Assembly (NCBI GenBank): GCA_021850325.1
Contig: JAJZMF010000027.1
Location: 62,001 to 126,000, forward strand
DNA from: Actinomycetes bacterium
Lineage (GTDB): Bacteria; Actinomycetota; Acidimicrobiia; Acidimicrobiales; Palsa-688
DNA: 64,000 nt
Direction of reading: 5' to 3'
Positions 2,480-60,700 of this stretch are shown here, piece by piece. The translations under genes were made by a program, and so were the position numbers. Every line of letters begins with the position of its first letter. Position 1 is the stretch's first letter. The notes under the pieces were generated by a model that was given only the letters and a program-made list of their open reading frames with translations, was not told where the DNA came from and made no database searches.

Positions 2480-4738
2480 CTAGGCCCTCCCCGGCCCCGG
2501 CCCGGTGCTTGCCGGCACAACATCGATGAAGACGGCCGTCGTGTAGTCGGGGATCCCCGAGCCGCTCGAGCGGCGGTGGGCCCCCAGGAGCACGTTCCCC
2601 TCCGGCCAGTGCACCTGCACGGTGCCCCGGGCGACGGGTGCCAACTGGGCCTCACCTTCGAGCGAGCCGTGCTCGTTGCGCAGGACGAGACGGCTCCCCG
2701 GCGCAGCTCCCAGGGCAGCGGCGTCCAGGTGGTTGAGCATCACAGAGGACCGGGTGGCACCGGTGTGGCCGTCCCTGTCGCCCTGCACCATGCTGTTGAA
2801 CTGTTTGCCCCTCCTGGCGGCAACCAGGAAAGCTCCCTCCGGCACGGCCTGCTCGGGCACGTCCACCACGGCGAAACGGGCGCGCCCGTCCGGCGTCGGG
2901 AACTTCCACCCTGCGCACAGGGTGGCCCCTCCGTACTGGAACTGGTCGCCCTCCCGCTCCAAGGTGCCCATGAGCTCGTAGTTGGGCACCACCCGGGCGA
3001 TCTCGCGGCGGATGGCGGCGGTGCCGTCGAAGGCGAGGTGGGGAGCCCTGTCCGGACGGGCCAATGAAGCGAGAGCGGCGAAGACCTCCCACTCGGCCCT
3101 GGCTTCTCCGATCCGGGGACCGGGGACCTCGGGGCTGAAGATGACCCGGCGCTCGGTCGACGTCTGGGTTACCCCACCTCTCATCTCGTAACGCGTCTGG
3201 ACCGGCAGCAGTACGACCGTCCCTGCTCCGGGCACCAGCATCTGGGAGGAGGGGACGATGTCCAGGTGCACCCGCAACGGCAGCCGGCCGAGGGCCTCCC
3301 GGACGTACGCGGGGTCCGGGAGCACCTCGAGGAAGTTGCCTCCCGAGGCGACGAGAGCGTCCAGGCGCCCCTCGTGCGCCGCGTCGACCATCTCGGGCGC
3401 CGTGAGCCCGGGGGACGCAGGGACCGGGAAGCCCCACAGTTCGCTGAGGTGCGCTGCGTTGGCCTCATCGACCGCCACGCCACCGGGGAAGGCGGTGGCA
3501 TAGGCGCCCATCTCCGCCCCTCCCTGTACCCCGGAGTGCCCGCGGACAGGCATGAGCCCGCAGTGCGGCCGGCCCACGAACCCCCGGGCCAGGCCGAGGT
3601 TGACCACCGCCCGTACCGCATCCTCGCCATGGCTGGTCTGGGTGACCCCCATGCTCCACACGAGCACCCCGGTGCGGGCCCGGCCGAGCATCCGCCCGAG
3701 TGCCTGCATCTCCTGGCGGTTGGAACCGGAAGCCGCCTCGAGCGCCTCCCAGCCCTGGTCGGCCAGGCTCCGCGCCAGCTCGTCAAAGCCGGTGGTGTGG
3801 CCGTCCACGAACTCGCGGTCCACCCAGCCTTCGGAGATCATGTGCTTGAGCACCCCGTTGAGGAAGGCGATATCACCGCCCACCTTCACCTCGAAGAACC
3901 GGTCGGTCACCTTGGTCCCGAACACGGCGCTCTCCAGGTTCGACGGCACCCAGTACCGCTCCATAGCGGGCTCCCGGTAGGTGTTGACCACCGCCACCTG
4001 GGTGCCCGCCTTGCGGGCGTGGTACAGGTACTTCATCATGACCGGCTGGTTCTGGGCCACGTTGGAGCCGATGAAGACCACCAGGTCCGTACCGATCAGG
4101 TCGGTGTAGGAACAGGTGGTGGCGGCCACACCGAGCGCTCCCTTGAGCGCCAGGGTGCTGGGGGCGTGGCACAGCCGCGCCGCGCTGTCGACCGAGTTCG
4201 TGCCCAGGGCGCGTGCCGCCTTCTGTGCCACGTAGTAGTTCTCGTTCGGCTCGCCCCGGCTGGTCAGGTAGAAGGCCAGGCGCTCCGGCGGGGACGCGGC
4301 CAGGCGGGAAGCCACCAGTCCGAGCGCCTCGTCCCAACTGGTCCGCCTGAAGCCGGCTTCACCCTGCTGGCGGACCATGGGGAAGGGGAGACGGCCCAAC
4401 TTGTGCAGCTGGCGTGGTGGCATACCCTCGAGCCGGGAGACGTCCTCCAGCAGCGAGGTGTCCATCGCCGGCGCCGTGTTGAGCCTCAGCAGGCGGAGCC
4501 TGACGTTGCACAGGTGGACCTGGTCCAGGGTCCAGTCCTGCATACCCGTGGTACCGAGGGCGCACCCGTCGCAGGTGCCATGGTTGAGGATCCGCCACGC
4601 GTAGGCCAGGTTGTCCCGGTTGTCGACCAGAGCGTCCAGGATCGACTGGAGGTTGTTGGGCCGCGCCTGGCCCAAACCGAACGGTTTGAGCGATACCCAG
4701 TGGGCGGGGTCCAGTCGCTTCTCACGCCGCTTCGCCAT
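2480..4738 (-). CDS. FdhF/YdeP-family molybdopterin oxidoreductase (formate dehydrogenase-like)
   Basis: A 752-residue cytoplasmic molybdoenzyme of the FdhF/YdeP group, formate dehydrogenase alpha-like. The N-terminus has a reduced iron-sulfur signature, CDGC (Cys56, Cys59) and a further Cys77. Molybdopterin-binding blocks follow, and SAARLCHAPS puts Cys190 at the expected molybdenum-ligand position. The C-terminal MGD-binding beta-barrel starts near residue 640, with RRGKQFNSM and SSVMLNHLDA. No signal peptide is present. No NuoE/NuoF-like or membrane subunits lie nearby, so the electron acceptor is unknown. Members of this family are also linked to acid tolerance or to other substrates, so formate as substrate is an inference strengthened by the adjacent fdhD. 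It forms an operon with DUF6457 upstream and fdhD downstream. Confidence 0.9.
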   Translation of the reverse strand: MAKRREKRLDPAHWVSLKPFGLGQARPNNLQSILDALVDNRDNLAYAWRILNHGTCDGCALGTTGMQDWTLDQVHLCNVRLRLLRLNTAPAMDTSLLEDVSRLEGMPPRQLHKLGRLPFPMVRQQGEAGFRRTSWDEALGLVASRLAASPPERLAFYLTSRGEPNENYYVAQKAARALGTNSVDSAARLCHAPSTLALKGALGVAATTCSYTDLIGTDLVVFIGSNVAQNQPVMMKYLYHARKAGTQVAVVNTYREPAMERYWVPSNLESAVFGTKVTDRFFEVKVGGDIAFLNGVLKHMISEGWVDREFVDGHTTGFDELARSLADQGWEALEAASGSNRQEMQALGRMLGRARTGVLVWSMGVTQTSHGEDAVRAVVNLGLARGFVGRPHCGLMPVRGHSGVQGGAEMGAYATAFPGGVAVDEANAAHLSELWGFPVPASPGLTAPEMVDAAHEGRLDALVASGGNFLEVLPDPAYVREALGRLPLRVHLDIVPSSQMLVPGAGTVVLLPVQTRYEMRGGVTQTSTERRVIFSPEVPGPRIGEARAEWEVFAALASLARPDRAPHLAFDGTAAIRREIARVVPNYELMGTLEREGDQFQYGGATLCAGWKFPTPDGRARFAVVDVPEQAVPEGAFLVAARRGKQFNSMVQGDRDGHTGATRSSVMLNHLDAAALGAAPGSRLVLRNEHGSLEGEAQLAPVARGTVQVHWPEGNVLLGAHRRSSGSGIPDYTTAVFIDVVPASTGPGPGRA

Positions 4739-9525: not shown

Positions 9526-9771
9526 GTGGAGCAGGCACAGGTGCGCAATGGACGCCACCCTCAGGGCGGGCTCCAACGCCGCAGCGACCACTGCTATGCC
9601 CCGGCGGGCTCCTCCGAGCTGTTCGGGCTTCGCCGCGAGCAGGTCGAGGCCGCGTTGGCGTACTACGCCGAGTTCACCGACGAGATCGGTGCGCAGGTCG
9701 AGGCGAACCGACGGGCTGTAGACGAGGCGGAGGCCCTCTGGCACCGCCAGCAGGCGCTGCTGGCAGGGTGA
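9526..9771 (+). pseudogene. antitoxin remnant (C-terminal part of a small TA antitoxin)
   Basis: The last 49 residues (LFGLRREQVEAALAYYAEF, then DEIGAQVEANRRAVDEAEAL and HRQQALL) match the helical C-terminus of small antitoxins that pair with DUF5615/PIN-like toxins. The first 30 residues of the frame do not look like the DNA-binding part, and no good ribosome site is visible, so the 5' end seems decayed or replaced. The stop codon overlaps a GTG (GTGA at 9768-9771) that opens a toxin-like frame, the usual antitoxin-toxin coupling. Confidence 0.5.
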
Positions 9772-9834
9772 AGCTCCTGCTCGACGCGCACCACTCCCCC
9801 CCTCGCCGCCGAGAGACGTCCTGGCTGAGCTGCT
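9768..9834 (+). pseudogene. truncated DUF5615-like toxin start
   Basis: A GTG overlapping the antitoxin stop opens VKLLLDAHHSP, the characteristic N-terminus of DUF5615 PIN-like toxins, which normally have an acidic residue after the first strand (LLLDxHxSP). The frame reads out after 22 codons. The rest of the toxin, normally about 100 residues, is missing, and the following sequence belongs to a different module in another frame. Confidence 0.5.
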
Positions 9835-9991
9835 AGCCGAGCTACGTGCCGAACATGGCCCCGCACCTGACGGTCAGATCGAGGAGGTCGGTCGATCGTG
9901 GCGAGCCCCGCGACGTCACCAAGTCCGTCCCGGCGTAGCGGACCTCCTCGTACTAGACACCGAAGGGCTGGCCAAGGCGGCGGGACCGAGC
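9812..9991 (+). pseudogene. second TA relic: antitoxin tail joined to PIN-domain start
   Basis: This frame is open without an ATG start. It reads DVLAELLAELRAEHGPAP, a typical C-terminal stretch of CopG/Phd-like antitoxins. After about 30 codons it reads DLLVLDTEGLAKAAG, the first strand and helix of a VapC-type PIN toxin with its first acidic metal ligand. The PIN homology then stops abruptly, where the convergent MOSC gene begins. Both halves are incomplete, so this is debris from at least one further toxin-antitoxin pair. Confidence 0.45.
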
Positions 9992-10036
9992 GCGCGCTGC
10001 GGCCCGACGGGTCGGCCCTCCCGTTTGCACCGTCGC

Positions 10037-10753
10037 TCAGGTCGGTGGCGGGCCCTCGTCGCCCGGTTGTCCCGCCTCGTCGTCCGGCCCTTCGTCAATG
10101 TCAAAACCCTCGCCCGCAAGGGCGCGTTGGCGCAGCTCGGGCTCCAGGTCGTCGCCGGCGGCCAGGAGCCGGGGCAGCAGGGCACGTTCCCGGGTCAGGG
10201 CGCGAAAGCAGAGGCCGATGTCGACATCGTGGTCAGGCCGATGGACAAGCTCGATGGTGTCGCCCTCCTGCACCTCTCCCGGCACCACCACGCGCAGGTA
10301 GGCCCCCGGGCGTGCTCGGGCCGTGAACGCCTTCAGCCACCCCCGCTCGCGCATCCAGACGGCAAAAGTGGCACAGGGTATGCGCGGGGTGGTGACAGCC
10401 AGGACCACCTGCTCCCCCACTCTCCAACGCTCCCCGAGGCGGGCCGATGTTACGTCGAGCCCGACGGTGGTGAGGTTCTCGCCAAAGCTGCCGTTGGGCA
10501 CGGGGCGACCAAGACGGCCCTGCCACCAGTCGAGGTCCTCCCGGGCCACGGCGTACAGCGCCTGCCCGGGGCCACCGTGGTTGGGGGTGTCGCAGATGTG
10601 GTCGCCGTCCAGCCCGCTGCGCCCGGCGCTGGGCTCCGCCACCCGCACTGCTCCCGCAACGGGCCGCTTGTCGATCCCGCTCCAGCCCGACTTTGCCCGC
10701 ACCGGCCTCGGGGCCCCGACATTGACCGAGCTCAAGTAGGCGTGCTGGGACAT
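10037..10753 (-). CDS. MOSC-domain protein (molybdenum-cofactor sulfurase C-terminal-like)
   Basis: A 238-residue cytoplasmic MOSC protein, a fold that binds molybdopterin or delivers sulfur and metal to electrophiles (YiiM-like). Family blocks seen are SGIDKRPV near residue 23, GLDGDHICDTPNHGGPGQAL (the DxxNHGG metal and substrate loop), FGENLTT and RIPCATFAVWM, where the Cys is the conserved sulfur carrier. ATG 10753 (MSQHAYLSSVNVG) is preferred over an ATG further upstream. Its stop is close to the end of an Asp/Gly-rich tail. It overlaps the end of the truncated PhyH-like gene, so the two are probably one transcript. A link with the molybdoenzyme cluster at 1.5-5 kb is possible but unproven. 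Confidence 0.9.
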   Translation of the reverse strand: MSQHAYLSSVNVGAPRPVRAKSGWSGIDKRPVAGAVRVAEPSAGRSGLDGDHICDTPNHGGPGQALYAVAREDLDWWQGRLGRPVPNGSFGENLTTVGLDVTSARLGERWRVGEQVVLAVTTPRIPCATFAVWMRERGWLKAFTARARPGAYLRVVVPGEVQEGDTIELVHRPDHDVDIGLCFRALTRERALLPRLLAAGDDLEPELRQRALAGEGFDIDEGPDDEAGQPGDEGPPPT

Positions 10754-10754
10754 C

Positions 10755-11321
10755 TCATCGGACCTCCTGGTGGCGAGGGACATCATGCAGCGCCGCCCTG
10801 ATCGCGGCCTTCACCGACGAGGTGCCGGCGAAGGCGTCAAACGACGTGTTCGTCCACCCCGGTGGGTGCAGGGGTGGCTGGGCAATGATACGCGGGGAGC
10901 GCCCCCGGTGGGCCTGAGCCGCGTGGACCAGGAACGGGTGGCAAAGGTACACGTCGCCGGGCCGTCCGGTGGCCAGCGCCACGGGGTGGTCGGCCGTCGC
11001 CTCGGCCGCGCGCTGCGAGGCGGCCAGCATGCTCAGCCCGTCTTCGCCATGGGGGGCGAGGATCCGGGCCACGTCGTGGTGGGGCCCGACGCGTAGCCGG
11101 GTCGGAGCGTCCTGCGCCGTGACATCGGTCAGGAGGAACAACATGAGCAGCGCCCGGCCCCTCGTGTTGACATTGGCTCGCCGCTGGAAGGCGTCGTGGC
11201 GTCGTGCCGGGAAGCTCGAGTCGATGTGCCACCCGTCGTCCCCCGGCGGCTGTTCGCTCGGGAACCGCACGACGAAGCTCCCTAAGTTTAGTTCAAGCAA
11301 TTGAGTCGTGTACCGCTCCAT
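10755..11321 (-). pseudogene. N-terminally truncated PhyH-like Fe(II)/2-oxoglutarate dioxygenase
   Basis: From ATG 11321 the protein would have 188 residues. It keeps the iron-binding core: GWHIDSSFP supplies HxD, and CHPFLVHAAQAHRG supplies the distal His and the 2-oxoglutarate Arg. GRALLMLFLLTDV and the PTRLRVGPHHDVARILAPHG block identify a phytanoyl-CoA dioxygenase-like group whose full members are about 100 residues longer at the N-terminus. That part is absent here, and the sequence upstream of residue 10 belongs to the divergent cupin promoter side. It is probably inactive, although the retained iron site leaves some doubt. The 3' end overlaps the MOSC gene. Confidence 0.6.
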
Positions 11322-55741: not shown

Positions 55742-56704
55742 GTGGCCGACGCAGTGAGACCGCGCCCGGCGGAAGGTGCCCGCCCGGGCCCGGGGCGACC
55801 AAGGTCGGGGGCCCCTTGGCACCGGCGATTGCTCCTCATGGGCTCGACCGGGGGCTGGCCGGGCTCGCCGCCTCCCTGGCCCCCGTCGGGTGACTGGCCG
55901 ACAGGTGGCGGCGGAGGCCCGGCCTGGCCGCCATTGCCCGAGGACCGGAGCGAACCGGTCTGGCCCGGCCAGCCCCCTGCGGGCCCGGAGCCGACGGCGG
56001 GCGGCGCCCGGGTGCCGGCCAGGGCCGCCTGGTGGGGCCTGGCGGGCGCCGCAGTCGGCCTGGTGCTGGCAACACTGCTCCAGGGCATCGGGCTGGCGGC
56101 CACGGGCCAACGCTCGGTGACCCCGTCGAACACGGCCTTGCTCACCGTCCTGGGCGAGGTGGGGCTGTGGGCCGCCATGCTCGGCACCGCCGTGTTCGTG
56201 TCGCGTCGGTACGGGTCGCGCAGCCTGCAGCGGGACTTCGGCCTGGGGATCAGGCCGGCCGACATCGGCTGGGGCGCCCTGGCCATGGTCGGAGGCTTCG
56301 TGGCCAGCAGCGTGGTCGTTGCCGCCTTTGCCCACACCCGCTTTGCCGGGAGCAACTCCCAGATCGTCACCGGGCAGAAGGGCCACGAGCTCGGCCTGGT
56401 CGTGGTGGGCCTCGTCGTGGCGGTGGGGGCGCCCTTCTTCGAGGAGCTGTTCTTCCGCGGTTTCCTGCGGACGGCCTTCGAGGCCCGGCTGGGAGGCCAT
56501 GGGGCGGTGTGGGCACAGGCCGGCTTCTTCGCCCTGGCCCACCTGGGGGAGGCGGGCGGTTGGGGCAACGTCTCGGTGGTCAGCGCTCTGTTCCTGCTCG
56601 GCGTGGTCCTCGGCTACACGGCGAAGCTCACCGGCCGGCTGGGCGCGGGTATGGTTGCCCACGGCATGTTCAACCTGGTCGCGGTGGTGACAACGGTCCT
56701 ATGA
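55742..56704 (+). CDS. CPBP family intramembrane metalloprotease
   Basis: A 320-residue membrane protein. The first 90 residues are Pro/Gly/Trp-rich and disordered. Six to eight hydrophobic segments follow, with the Abi/CPBP motifs FFEELFFRGFLRTAF (tandem Glu of the metal site, near 232-245), HLGEAGGW and the last MVAHGMFNLVAV (His and Asn). Such proteins (Rce1-like) process peptides or prenylated proteins, or give immunity in bacteriocin loci. The start GTG 55742 could also be ATG 55838. The stop overlaps the next gene. Confidence 0.9.
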   Translation: MADAVRPRPAEGARPGPGRPRSGAPWHRRLLLMGSTGGWPGSPPPWPPSGDWPTGGGGGPAWPPLPEDRSEPVWPGQPPAGPEPTAGGARVPARAAWWGLAGAAVGLVLATLLQGIGLAATGQRSVTPSNTALLTVLGEVGLWAAMLGTAVFVSRRYGSRSLQRDFGLGIRPADIGWGALAMVGGFVASSVVVAAFAHTRFAGSNSQIVTGQKGHELGLVVVGLVVAVGAPFFEELFFRGFLRTAFEARLGGHGAVWAQAGFFALAHLGEAGGWGNVSVVSALFLLGVVLGYTAKLTGRLGAGMVAHGMFNLVAVVTTVL

Positions 56705-57468
56705 ACGGTCCTATGAGCAGCAGCGAAAGTGCCAAGGAACAGGTGGTGCGGTCGTCGGCCGAGATGCACCCCAGCACGGAGCACCATCACCGCAACGTCC
56801 AGGGCGGTGCGGTGCGGGCTGCGGTGTTCGGGGTGAGCGACGGCCTGGTGACGAACATCTCGTTGATCCTGGGCGTGGCGGGGGCTCAGGCAGGTGCGGG
56901 GTACGTGCGCCTGGCGGGGCTGGCAGGCCTGATGGCCGGAGCGTTCTCCATGGCGGCCGGCGAGTACGTCTCGATGTCGGCTCAGAGGGAGCTGCTCCAA
57001 AGGGAGCTGGAGATCGAGCGCCGGGCCCTCCACCAGGACCCGGAGGCCGAACTGGAGGAGCTCACGGACGTGTACGAGAGGCGGGGACTGAGCACGGAGG
57101 CGGCCTCGTACCTGGCACAGACGATGATGCGCACCCCCGAGCTGGCCCTCGAGACCCACGCACGCGAGGAGATAGGGATCGACCCGTCGGCCATCGCCTC
57201 GCCCTACCCGGCGGCCGTCTCCTCGTTCCTCAGCTTCGGTGTCGGGGCGCTCATACCGCTCCTACCCTGGTTGTTCCTCCGGGGCGGTGGGGCCGTCATG
57301 GCCTCCATCATCCTGACCGTCGTTGCCTCGCTGGTGATCGGGGCCCTGGTGGGCCAGGCCACCGGGCGCTCCGTCTGGCGTAGCGCTGTCCGCCAGTTGG
57401 CCGTAAGTATGCTCGCTGCTGTTGTCACCTACCTGGTCGGGAGGCTCGTCGGAGTCGGTGTGCACTGA
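56701..57468 (+). CDS. VIT1/CCC1-family iron/manganese transporter
   Basis: A 255-residue membrane protein of the VIT1/CCC1 group. The first helix region AAVFGVSDGLVTNISLILGV and second LAGLMAGAFSMAAGEYVSMS are signatures. The cytoplasmic Glu-rich metal-binding helices lie around 90-160 (QRELLQRELEIERRALHQDP), followed by three more helices. ATG 56701 overlaps the CPBP stop (ATGA), with 56713 as an alternative. It probably exports Fe2+ or Mn2+ from the cytoplasm. Confidence 0.93.
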   Translation: MNGPMSSSESAKEQVVRSSAEMHPSTEHHHRNVQGGAVRAAVFGVSDGLVTNISLILGVAGAQAGAGYVRLAGLAGLMAGAFSMAAGEYVSMSAQRELLQRELEIERRALHQDPEAELEELTDVYERRGLSTEAASYLAQTMMRTPELALETHAREEIGIDPSAIASPYPAAVSSFLSFGVGALIPLLPWLFLRGGGAVMASIILTVVASLVIGALVGQATGRSVWRSAVRQLAVSMLAAVVTYLVGRLVGVGVH

Positions 57469-57534: not shown

Positions 57535-58530
57535 GTGGTGCTGACGGGTCTCCCCTTGCCCCGGAGCGCACCCTCCGGGCAGGGCGGTGCGGTTGTAGAC
57601 CGGGGCGTCCTCTACCACCTGCTCACCTGGGCCGGGGTCTCACCGGCCACCGCCAACACGGTGGGGGGCCTGCTGACCGAGCCCCTGGTGGCCGTGGGCG
57701 TGCTCCTCGTCGCCTGGCTCATCGCCCGGTTCGAAAGGCGCCTTTCCAGGCGCATCGTCGCCTCGCTCCGCCTGGTGTCGCCCCTGGTCCGCAGCACCCC
57801 ACGGGGTGGTGACCGGGTCAGGACCATCACGGGAGCCGTCGACGCCCTGTTCAGGGTGGTGATCTGGGTGACCGCCCTGCTGGTGGTCATGGGCCAGCTC
57901 AACGTCCACCTGACCCCCTTCGTGGCTACGGCCACCATCATCGGTGCCGCGCTGGGCTTCGGTGCGCAGACCCTGGTGAAGGACTTCCTGTCCGGCATCC
58001 TCATCATCGCCGAAGACCAGTACGGGGTGGGCGACACGATCGAGGTCAACTCACTGGTGGCGACCGTGGAGAACGTGACGCTGCGGGTCACCCGCCTGCG
58101 GGCCCTGGACGGGGTCGTGTGGTACGTGCCCAATGGGGACATCCGCACCGTCGGCAACCACTCGGAAGGTACCAGTCAGGCCGTGATCGACCTCCAACTG
58201 CCTTCCGGCAGCGACCTGCGCCAGGCCGGGCGCCTGGCCGAGGAGGAGGGGGCTGCCATGGCCGCCGACCCGGACTGGGCCCAGGAACTGCTTTCCCCCC
58301 CGGTGTTCTCCGGTGCCCAAGCCGAGGACGCCGGCACCGTGACCATCCGGGTGCTGGCGCGCACTCCTCCCGGGCACCACTTCCGCGTGGCCCGGGAACT
58401 GCGTCTGCGCATCCTCGACCGGCTGGTCAGGGAGGGCGTGGCCTGGGCCCCGGGCCCGGGAGCCACCGCCCCGGGTGCCGGCAATGCAGATGGCGGTGCC
58501 GGGGGCGGCGCCCTGTCCGAGGACGGCTGA
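57535..58530 (+). CDS. MscS-type mechanosensitive channel
   Basis: A 331-residue channel with three membrane helices before the pore. The pore helix GAALGFGAQTLVKDFLSGIL is the MscS TM3 signature, and the beta domain starts with DQYGVGDTIEV and continues VTRLRALDGVVWYVPNGDIR. The C-terminal tail is Gly/Ala-rich. It releases solutes on hypo-osmotic shock. It lies 16 bp before the thiolase-like gene, so they may be co-transcribed. Confidence 0.94.
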   Translation: MVLTGLPLPRSAPSGQGGAVVDRGVLYHLLTWAGVSPATANTVGGLLTEPLVAVGVLLVAWLIARFERRLSRRIVASLRLVSPLVRSTPRGGDRVRTITGAVDALFRVVIWVTALLVVMGQLNVHLTPFVATATIIGAALGFGAQTLVKDFLSGILIIAEDQYGVGDTIEVNSLVATVENVTLRVTRLRALDGVVWYVPNGDIRTVGNHSEGTSQAVIDLQLPSGSDLRQAGRLAEEEGAAMAADPDWAQELLSPPVFSGAQAEDAGTVTIRVLARTPPGHHFRVARELRLRILDRLVREGVAWAPGPGATAPGAGNADGGAGGGALSEDG

Positions 58531-58546
58531 GACGTCGGCACGGCAG

Positions 58547-59737
58547 GTGGTGGTCGTCGGGGCGGTACGTACCGCTTACGGCCGCCGTGGTGGTGCCCTG
58601 GCCGCCTGGCACCCTCTCGACCTGTCCGCCGAGGTGCTGGCCGCCCTTCTCGAGCGTTCGGGTGCCCGGCCGGAGGACGTCGGTGCCCTGTGGTGGGGCT
58701 GTGCCTCTCAGGTGGGTGCGCAGTCGGGCAACCTGGGGCGGCGCGCCGTCCTGGCCGCGGGCTGGCCCGAGAGCGTCCCCGGGGTGACCCTGGACGCCCA
58801 CACTGCGTCCTCGGCGTACGCCGTGCACCTGGCTGCCCAGGCCGTCGCTGCCGGTTCGGAGGACCTGGTGGTCGCAGGGGGGGTGGAGTCGACGTCGACC
58901 GTGCCGCTCGGGGCGGCTCTCGGTCAGCCCACGCTGGGCAAGCCGGCCGGGCGCCTCCTGGCCGAGCGCTACCGCGCCGGCGGTGGCCTGCTCCCCCCCG
59001 GGCTGGTGGCCGAGAACGTGGCCACCCAGCGGGGGCTCGGGCGCCGGCGCCTTGACGACTGGGCGCTCAGCAGCGCCCAGAAGGCAGCCCGTGCCCAGCC
59101 TGCGGCCACGCCCTACATCGTGGTGCCGGGAGGCGGAGCCGGCCCCACGGAGGCGAGGGGCGGGCGACGGGGCACCAGCCTGCCCGGGGCCCTGGACGAG
59201 GCGGTGCCCTACTCCCTCGCCCGTGGCCCACTGTCGGCCCTGCCCCCTCTCTACCTCGAGGGTGGGGTGGTCACCGCGGCCAACCTGGCAGCCGAAGGCG
59301 ATGGGGCCGCAGCCGTCCTGCTGGCCGAGGCAGGGTTGGCGCGCCGGCTCGGTCTCGGGGCGAGCGCCCGGTTGGTGTCCTTCGGGGTGGCAGGGGCGAG
59401 CCCGCACGTGGGGTTGCTGGCCCTGGCCCCGGCTACGAGGCTTGCCCTTGGCCGGGCCGGTCTGGGGGTTGCCGATGTGAGCCGGTGGTACGTGCTCGAG
59501 GCGAGCGCCGTCGCCGTCCTGGCCTGGGTGGACGAAATGGGGGTCGACGAGGGCCTCGTCAACCCCGAGGGAGGGGAACTGGCGTCGACCTGCCCTCTCG
59601 GCGCCGCCGGCGCCGCCCTGTTCGCCGCGGCTGCGCAAGGGCCGGGCGGGGGGGACGGAGGCGGGCGCTACGTCGGGGTGTGCTCAACCGGTGAGGGCGG
59701 CGTGGCGACTGCGTGCATCATGGAGCTGGCCCGATGA
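58547..59737 (+). CDS. thiolase-fold protein lacking most catalytic residues
   Basis: A 396-residue thiolase-fold protein (VVVVGAVRTAYGRRGGALA at the N-terminus, LVVAGGVESTSTVPLG, and a C-terminal YVGVCSTGEGG). The nucleophile Cys of true thiolases (consensus VNRxCASG) is replaced: here LDAHTASSAYAV puts Thr86 at that place. The NEAF motif is LEAS, and the GHP motif (GGxxAxGHPxG) is ASTCPLG with Cys for the catalytic His; only the second Cys (GVCSTG) remains. Fold assignment is clear, but classic thiolase chemistry is unlikely. GTG 58547 is used because the upstream frame lies inside mscS. Its true substrate is unknown. Confidence 0.88.
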   Translation: MVVVGAVRTAYGRRGGALAAWHPLDLSAEVLAALLERSGARPEDVGALWWGCASQVGAQSGNLGRRAVLAAGWPESVPGVTLDAHTASSAYAVHLAAQAVAAGSEDLVVAGGVESTSTVPLGAALGQPTLGKPAGRLLAERYRAGGGLLPPGLVAENVATQRGLGRRRLDDWALSSAQKAARAQPAATPYIVVPGGGAGPTEARGGRRGTSLPGALDEAVPYSLARGPLSALPPLYLEGGVVTAANLAAEGDGAAAVLLAEAGLARRLGLGASARLVSFGVAGASPHVGLLALAPATRLALGRAGLGVADVSRWYVLEASAVAVLAWVDEMGVDEGLVNPEGGELASTCPLGAAGAALFAAAAQGPGGGDGGGRYVGVCSTGEGGVATACIMELAR

Positions 59738-59884: not shown

Positions 59885-60700
59885 GTGGGCCTCTCGGACG
59901 AGCAGTACCGGCAGCTGCTCGCGTTGCGCACCGACCTCCGTCGCTTCCTCCGCTGGAGCGACAAGCAGGCCCGTGCGGCGGGCCTCAACCCGGCTCAGCA
60001 CCAGCTGCTGCTGGCTGTGCGGGGCCACGGAGGGCCGGGGGCACCGACCATCGGGGACGTGGCCGAGCACCTCCTGCTCGAGCACCACAGCGCAGTGGGG
60101 CTCGTGGACAGGGCCGAGGCCGCCGGCCTGGTCGAGCGGGTGCGCCCCGGCTCAGGTGGCGACCGTCGTGTCGTCCGCCTACGGCTCACCCCCGATGGCG
60201 AAGGCCTTCTGGAGCGCCTGTCGGCGTCGCACCTGGACGAACTGGCACGGCTGGGCCTGGGCCTGCCCCGCCCGGTACCGGGTGCGGCTCAGCTCGACGC
60301 TCCGGCACCGCCGGAGCCCTTGCCCGGGGCGGGCCGGGCCCACCTGGTCGCGACCGCCCGCGTCTACGGGCCCCACCAACCGACGGCAGCGCATGGGGTG
60401 CTGGTCGACCGGCTCTGGCCAAGGGGCCTCGCCCGCTCGTCGGCGCCGTTCGACGAGTGGATGAGCGACGTCGCACCGAGCACGGAACTGCGCCGCTGGT
60501 ACGACCACCGGCCAGAGCGCTTCGAGCGCTTTGCCGCCGTCTACAGGCAGGAGCTGGGCCGGGAGCCGGCCTCGGGGGCGCTGTCGCGCCTGCACCGGAC
60601 GGCCGCTGAACGCGACGTCGTCCTCTTCACCGCCACCCGTGACCTCGCCCTGTCGGCGGCCGAGGTGCTCCGCCAGGTCCTGGCCGGAGGCCGCGGGTGA
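59885..60700 (+). CDS. MarR-family regulator fused to a DUF488 domain
   Basis: A 271-residue two-domain protein. Residues 1-130 are a MarR winged helix: LNPAQHQLLLAVRGHGGPGA, IGDVAEHLLLEHHSAVGLVD, then the wing GGDRRVVRLRLTPDGEGLLE. Residues 155-270 are DUF488 (YeaO-like): RVYGPHQPTAAHGVLVDRLW, PRGLARSSAPFDEWMSDVAP and LFTATRDLALSAAEVL. DUF488 proteins are usually separate and of unknown function. GTG 59885 is chosen. The stop overlaps the response-regulator GTG, so the fusion and the two-component system form one operon. Confidence 0.9.
   Translation: MGLSDEQYRQLLALRTDLRRFLRWSDKQARAAGLNPAQHQLLLAVRGHGGPGAPTIGDVAEHLLLEHHSAVGLVDRAEAAGLVERVRPGSGGDRRVVRLRLTPDGEGLLERLSASHLDELARLGLGLPRPVPGAAQLDAPAPPEPLPGAGRAHLVATARVYGPHQPTAAHGVLVDRLWPRGLARSSAPFDEWMSDVAPSTELRRWYDHRPERFERFAAVYRQELGREPASGALSRLHRTAAERDVVLFTATRDLALSAAEVLRQVLAGGRG

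Follow-up and report, generated by a model that had tools for sequence, protein, structure and literature searches.

A thiolase-fold protein without the four catalytic residues, inherited in place within a clade of Acidimicrobiales

According to the available part of PMC3406046, MsTLP1 of Mycobacterium smegmatis is a thiolase-fold protein of unknown function that lacks both the catalytic fingerprints and thiolase activity. TLP1 binds CoA only at about 0.6 mM, branches near the SCP2-thiolases, carries a YSCF motif and an extra C-terminal domain, and is 15% identical to the Zoogloea thiolase (same source). Sal, Ltp2 and the Trypanosoma SLP have the thiolase fold without the thiolase nucleophile and are characterised by the YDCY, YDHF and YDCF motifs, and Sal and Ltp2 have a DUF35 partner, as described in the accessible text of PMC12329534. 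The classical AcCoA-C-Actrans thiolases (TIGR01930; PRK07801/PRK06504-like) include a syntenic ortholog, in sister Acidimicrobiales genera, of the gene described here.

The gene lies in a stretch of 64,000 nucleotides that was analysed as a whole (the window). It is on the forward strand, from a GTG at 58547 to a stop ending at 59737, and encodes 396 amino acids plus the stop; a previous sequence-only reading had its coordinates and frame right. The GTG is the predicted start, the longer frame opening at 58475, within the MscS gene. The protein exceeds the Pfam cut-offs for both Thiolase_N (PF00108, 138 bits, cut-off 26.4) and Thiolase_C (PF02803, 49.4 bits, cut-off 27), while its score for TIGR01930 (acetyl-CoA C-acyltransferase), 228.8 bits, is below the curated cut-off of 240.55. 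The identity to solved thiolases is about 27-37%. Structural modelling, which the sequence-only reading had proposed for the pocket, gave a confident thiolase fold, with a pLDDT of 89.2 and a pTM of 0.91 for the AlphaFold model, and 1ulq_A matches this model with a Z of 57.1 and an rmsd of 1.9 over 377 residues. The domain scores, the model and the structural match agree that the fold is retained, as that reading had expected. Residues 1-395 of the model align to plain thiolases, and the protein stops with the thiolase C-domain. By homology over both domains and by its predicted fold it is a full-length classical thiolase. The loop at residues 203-211 is modelled with low confidence; it is the site, after about residue 200, where the two other copies from genus g1 (L011, L003) have a Gly/Ser/Pro/Arg-rich insertion some 20-25 residues long.

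Counting from the 58547 start, the column of the nucleophilic Cys is occupied by Thr86 (codon 58802..58804, forward strand, as are all codons below), the Asn of NEAF by Leu317 (59495..59497, motif LEAS) and the His of GHP by Cys349 (59591..59593, motif TCP). These three replacements, first noticed in the sequence-only reading, are borne out by the alignment. The second catalytic Cys had been taken as kept. However, the CxG Cys column (TMCEGGG in canonical thiolases) falls on Thr381 (59687..59689), and the Cys in question is Cys379, two residues earlier on the same predicted strand (375-382 in the model). In the alignments none of the four catalytic residues remains, one more loss than the earlier reading had counted. 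The placement of Thr381 comes from two MAFFT alignments (124 rows and 42 rows) made from sequence only, and it brings Gly384, Gly385 and Glu393 into register.

Among the 124 aligned rows, 104 keep the Cys-Asn-His-Cys set. The remaining 20 are the window protein and its relatives: eleven distinct copies, nine of them present twice, that lack all four residues in every case. We call them the dead copies. In the order Cys, Asn, His, Cys, the patterns are TLCT (the window), GLCV (two copies), AHDA (three), AHAA (three), VHSA (one) and DHSA (one). Over ten dead rows the substitutes are thus A/G/T/V/D, H/L, C/A/S/D and A/V/T in the four columns, with His at column 317 in seven. No copy has an internal stop. 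As the loss is common to all eleven distinct copies, we reject a sequencing or alignment accident. Thiolase chemistry is very probably gone, as had been suspected from the window protein alone.

The relatives sought on the advice of the sequence-only reading were found with a profile built from seven copies and searched against 32 genomes of the family; a first scan of the genome contigs with the window protein alone as query found none. The profile splits the family thiolases into two groups, with eleven matches above 490 bits and all other listed matches at or below 396 bits. The eleven copies are found in ten of the 32 genomes, in genera coded g1, g3, g9 and g16. Five hosts (G000, G001, G004, G018, G022) are 89-95% complete and the other five bins 59-68%. 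One genome, G046, has a second copy on contig C59 with the same motifs as the G043 copy, which may be a binning error. Outside the family, sampling 397 genomes from the order and 396 from the phylum gave no clade member at the thresholds used. Two extra matches there (400 and 397 bits, in G104 and G466) score as intact copies do; the G104 match keeps C, N, H and C when read, and the G466 match is placed by score only. We also kept 80 of 167 matching named GTDB loci, of which nine belong to the dead clade and 71 keep the four residues. Their records are metagenome bins titled Acidimicrobiales, Acidimicrobiaceae or Actinomycetes, some of bog or fen origin. Three loci with Acidimicrobiales-like thiolases (L096, L122, L138) stand under Bifidobacterium breve titles and are probably mislabelled metagenome bins. 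Our literature search, in which subscription papers were mostly outside reach, returned no report on this clade or on an "inactive thiolase" or similar phrases.

In sister genera the intact thiolase lies in the interval from yidC to crgA-pabA-pknB and often follows MscS and a peroxiredoxin. Of the seven intact family loci examined, five have this yidC-crgA slot (L069, L070, L073, L074, L075), and in the two loci of genus g4 (L071, L072) the intact gene is elsewhere. In the fetched flanks of the 71 named intact loci, many of which end at a contig edge, pabA is found in 60, pknB in 52 and crgA in 28. The dead copies occupy the same yidC ... crgA-pabA-pknB slot. No intact match of the syntenic kind is found in the genomes that bear them, where the other listed thiolases score 212-236 bits. 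Directly after the relocated g4 gene, L071 has a thiolase homolog (9747-11252) that carries the YSCF motif known from TLP1, and a VIT1 gene about 3 kb beyond that; L072 has a thiolase homolog in the same place.

In a tree of 56 rows, made by a quick method, the dead copies form one clade (support 100) whose stem measures 1.61 changes per column, and they do not join the intact genes of the family. Trees that join them with the family's intact genes are 9.8 log units better (AU p 0.65), and trees that join them with all syntenic-type genes 28.6 log units better (AU p 0.91). Because of the long branches the placement by sequence is unsure, and synteny bears the argument on origin. The dead and intact copies are positional orthologs, which shows descent in place. 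Horizontal replacement is rejected, as the slot is kept and the AU test does not speak against a union with the intact genes.

We estimated dN/dS by pairwise codon maximum likelihood with our own script. For three pairs of dead copies the ratio is 0.126 (G001-G002, dS 0.76), 0.094 (G004-G043, dS 0.44) and 0.061 (G022-G041, dS 2.28), and omega = 1 is rejected in each (likelihood ratios 172, 134 and 252). Three other dead pairs are synonymously saturated (dS 4.7, 12.5 and beyond estimate). The two least saturated of five intact pairs have 0.010 and 0.012, and VIT1, in the same order of dead pairs, has 0.031, 0.101 and 0.052. The dead copies are under purifying selection; the constraint is relaxed, dN/dS being roughly tenfold higher than in the intact genes, yet ordinary for a working gene.

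Open frames, this range of dN/dS and the lost catalytic set agree with the earlier proposal that the gene is selected for something other than thiolase chemistry. The fold is conserved, the catalytic motif is absent and the gene is kept by selection, as is characteristic of a pseudoenzyme. We give a probability of roughly 0.6 to the reading that the protein is a pseudo-thiolase, kept as a folded body with a non-catalytic role, as a binding or structural partner. A thiolase gene in a slot near the replication-origin genes, common to Acidimicrobiales, was inherited in place. One lineage then lost the four catalytic residues together with most of the surrounding acyl-CoA pocket, while the fold, the frame and most other conserved positions stayed under purifying selection. 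A reduced beta-oxidation may have freed the protein from its thiolase role. The folded body, probably still dimeric, would bind another protein, or hold a small ligand in the rebuilt pocket. As a weaker suggestion, its partner or client may be encoded in the same membrane-protein operon, where VIT1 is the one constant neighbour.

The changes to the pocket were followed in near-invariant columns, defined as those with at least 96% identity in 32 active rows. There are 150 such columns, compared with ten dead rows (the C59 copy of G046 was omitted as alike to the G043 copy): 64 are unchanged in all ten, 33 are changed in all ten and 53 are mixed. The losses are enriched at catalytic and pocket columns (9/11 against 24/139, Fisher p 1.8e-5), and for the non-catalytic pocket columns by themselves 5/7 are lost (p 0.0036). 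The pocket of the Zoogloea thiolase is lined by F235, F319, H156, M157, M288, S247, L249, H348, L148 and I350, according to the available part of PMC7337054. We mapped it by motif spacing and checked the result against the PhaA alignment, leaving L148 unmapped; the H156 column is variable in sister genera. Four pocket columns hold a new residue in all ten dead rows. Three of them are Tyr236 (59252..59254) at F235, Phe in active thiolases, Glu250 (59294..59296) at L249, Ile or Leu in active thiolases, and Ser320 (59504..59506) at F319, again Phe. The fourth, the M157 column, Gln in sisters, is Pro in all ten. The M288 column has Trp, Gly or Ser, the S247 column has eight Ala, one Cys and one Ser, and the I350 column is variable. 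Thr348 (59588..59590), also clade-invariant, replaces the Gly of GHP. Seven new residues are invariant in the ten rows (Ala87, Leu121, Pro151, Tyr236, Glu250, Ser320, Thr348), and four of them (Pro151, Tyr236, Glu250, Ser320) are in pocket columns. Judged from these columns, the acyl-CoA pocket has been rebuilt in the dead clade. Varying catalytic columns beside seven new invariants would be expected of a protein that gave up the chemistry and whose pocket was afterwards used, or filled, for something else.

The same invariants also speak for a different enzyme, which we consider unlikely. Against a non-catalytic role, a new catalytic set may consist of Glu250, Ser320, Thr348 and Tyr236, joined by His317 in seven of ten rows and acting on a substrate that is not a thiolase substrate; all seven new invariants are in near-invariant columns, four of them in the pocket. 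There is a precedent for a change of reaction, as the thiolase-fold proteins Sal and Ltp2 are retro-aldolases that use a Tyr and a Cys or a pair of Tyr, according to the accessible text of PMC12329534. However, the four catalytic columns vary freely inside the clade, and the YDCY/YDHF motif of Sal and Ltp2 is absent, LEAS or HESS standing in its place. DUF35 (PF01796) has no match in any of the ten hosts, while 16 of the 32 family genomes have some. With motif and DUF35 both absent, an aldolase of the Sal/Ltp2 type is rejected.

The neighbours had been judged to give no clue. This holds for the downstream gene, a MarR domain fused to DUF488 (59885-60700, forward strand), which is not conserved. 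Among DUF488 models it matches the "inactive" N3 subclade PF22752 best (104 bits, against 64 for the "active" model), so that a second predicted inactive domain adjoins the dead thiolase. It does not hold for the upstream genes, which lie on one strand with the thiolase: a CPBP (Rce1-like) intramembrane protease (55742..56704), a VIT1 family transporter (56701..57468), whose start the protease gene overlaps by four bases, and an MscS-type channel (57535..58530), which stops 16 bases before the thiolase start. Sister genera have MscS, too, in the slot that holds their intact gene. All eleven dead loci have VIT1 upstream on the same strand, and it directly adjoins the thiolase in ten, with a possible start codon 2-43 bases past the VIT1 stop in nine of these (the gap in L067 is longer). 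It was not found at any of the 71 named intact loci, but at both g4 loci it is about 3 kb from the intact gene. Two dead loci, L032 (9376-10833, G001) and L033 (265-1725, G002), have a permease gene between the thiolase and crgA that is absent from the others.

VIT1 is our guess for the partner of the pseudo-thiolase. In a more specific form, the thiolase would have become an accessory or sensor subunit of the VIT1-type metal transporter after beta-oxidation was cut back, its emptied pocket binding and reporting a new ligand held by Glu250, Ser320, Thr348 and Tyr236; this we regard as unlikely. The adjacency may reflect shared descent instead of function, because eleven loci of a single clade lack independence. 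In G017 the order CPBP-VIT1-MscS-crgA is kept without any thiolase match, a clean loss from which it follows that VIT1 manages without the thiolase there and that the gene is dispensable in this genome. Between crgA and pabA, L180 of G017 has a reading frame (3351-4730) that we take to be HipA-like. Within the same reach of the literature, nothing was found that joins a thiolase, a vacuolar iron transporter and an operon.

The dead thiolase correlates with few beta-oxidation genes in the host genome. Acyl-CoA dehydrogenase N-domain matches number 0-4 in the ten hosts and 8-51 in 21 of the 22 other genomes (none in G017), and enoyl-CoA hydratase family matches 0-5 against 6-52 (three in G017), a contrast that is inflated by the low completeness of five host bins. 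Four hosts that are 91-95% complete (G000, G001, G004, G022) have 1, 3, 4 and 1 acyl-CoA dehydrogenase matches. The 3HCDH domain (PF00725) is a weak indicator of the pathway, found in just seven of the 32 genomes, and these include three hosts (G004, G022, G043). Further Thiolase_N matches are present in six hosts (G001, G004, G010, G018, G022, G043). With other thiolases in six hosts and 3HCDH in three, beta-oxidation is reduced, not always gone.

A gene on its way out after the loss of beta-oxidation would also leave few pathway genes in its hosts, and the long stem, the relaxed dN/dS and the missing thiolase in the G017 slot could be read as such decay. Yet all eleven frames are open, 64 invariant columns are kept in every copy, neutrality is rejected at a dN/dS of 0.06-0.13, and the youngest pairs show a constraint similar to that of VIT1 (0.031-0.101), which makes a decaying remnant quite improbable. 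Inactive pseudo-subunits are common in other enzyme families, and the further thiolases of six hosts would provide an active partner for a regulatory or structural subunit of a thiolase heteromer. However, a search of the window's genome (95% complete) at E up to 1e-3 gives no Thiolase_N match besides the dead copy itself, and in G002, G041 and G046 (59-68% complete) the matches are likewise limited to clade members. A scaffold for an active thiolase, as the sequence-only reading had allowed, is thereby ruled out in the window genome unless a second thiolase is in the missing 5%, and a heteromer is very improbable for the clade. That the protein is still a thiolase, its catalysis taken over by Cys349 in the His column and by Cys379 close to the column of the second Cys, is hardly tenable: a migrated Cys or His is rejected since these are Cys in only three and four of ten rows (Cys379 in the window protein, L011, L003 and L005), the nucleophile has no substitute, and the pocket is altered too, at the columns of Zoogloea F319, M288 and L249.

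It is often impossible to place the active ancestor of a pseudoenzyme. Between these sister genera, the active and the dead gene are found at one and the same chromosomal slot, which makes it possible to locate the loss on the tree, trace it residue by residue and follow it beside the shrinking of the pathway once served. The dead copies are likely annotated automatically as acetyl-CoA acetyltransferase, which would add a false beta-oxidation or acetoacetyl-CoA step to metabolic models of these genomes.

Compared with the syntenic classical thiolase, the dead clade is alike in fold, length, chromosomal slot, 40-44% identity and 64 of the 150 invariant columns, and differs in the absence of the four catalytic and most pocket residues, with the window protein below the TIGR01930 cut-off. 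As far as the available parts of the sources describe them, MsTLP1 shares with it a thiolase fold without catalytic fingerprints, and Sal, Ltp2 and SLP a thiolase fold minus the thiolase nucleophile. In contrast to MsTLP1 as described there, the dead clade is of the classical type, the slot of its active ancestor is still recognisable, the extra C-terminal domain is absent from the window protein, and in place of YSCF at the NEAF position the window has LEAS and its relatives LELS, HESS or HEGS. The same four motifs, and hosts lacking DUF35, separate it from Sal and Ltp2. The dead clade belongs neither to TLP1 nor to the Sal/Ltp2 aldolases.
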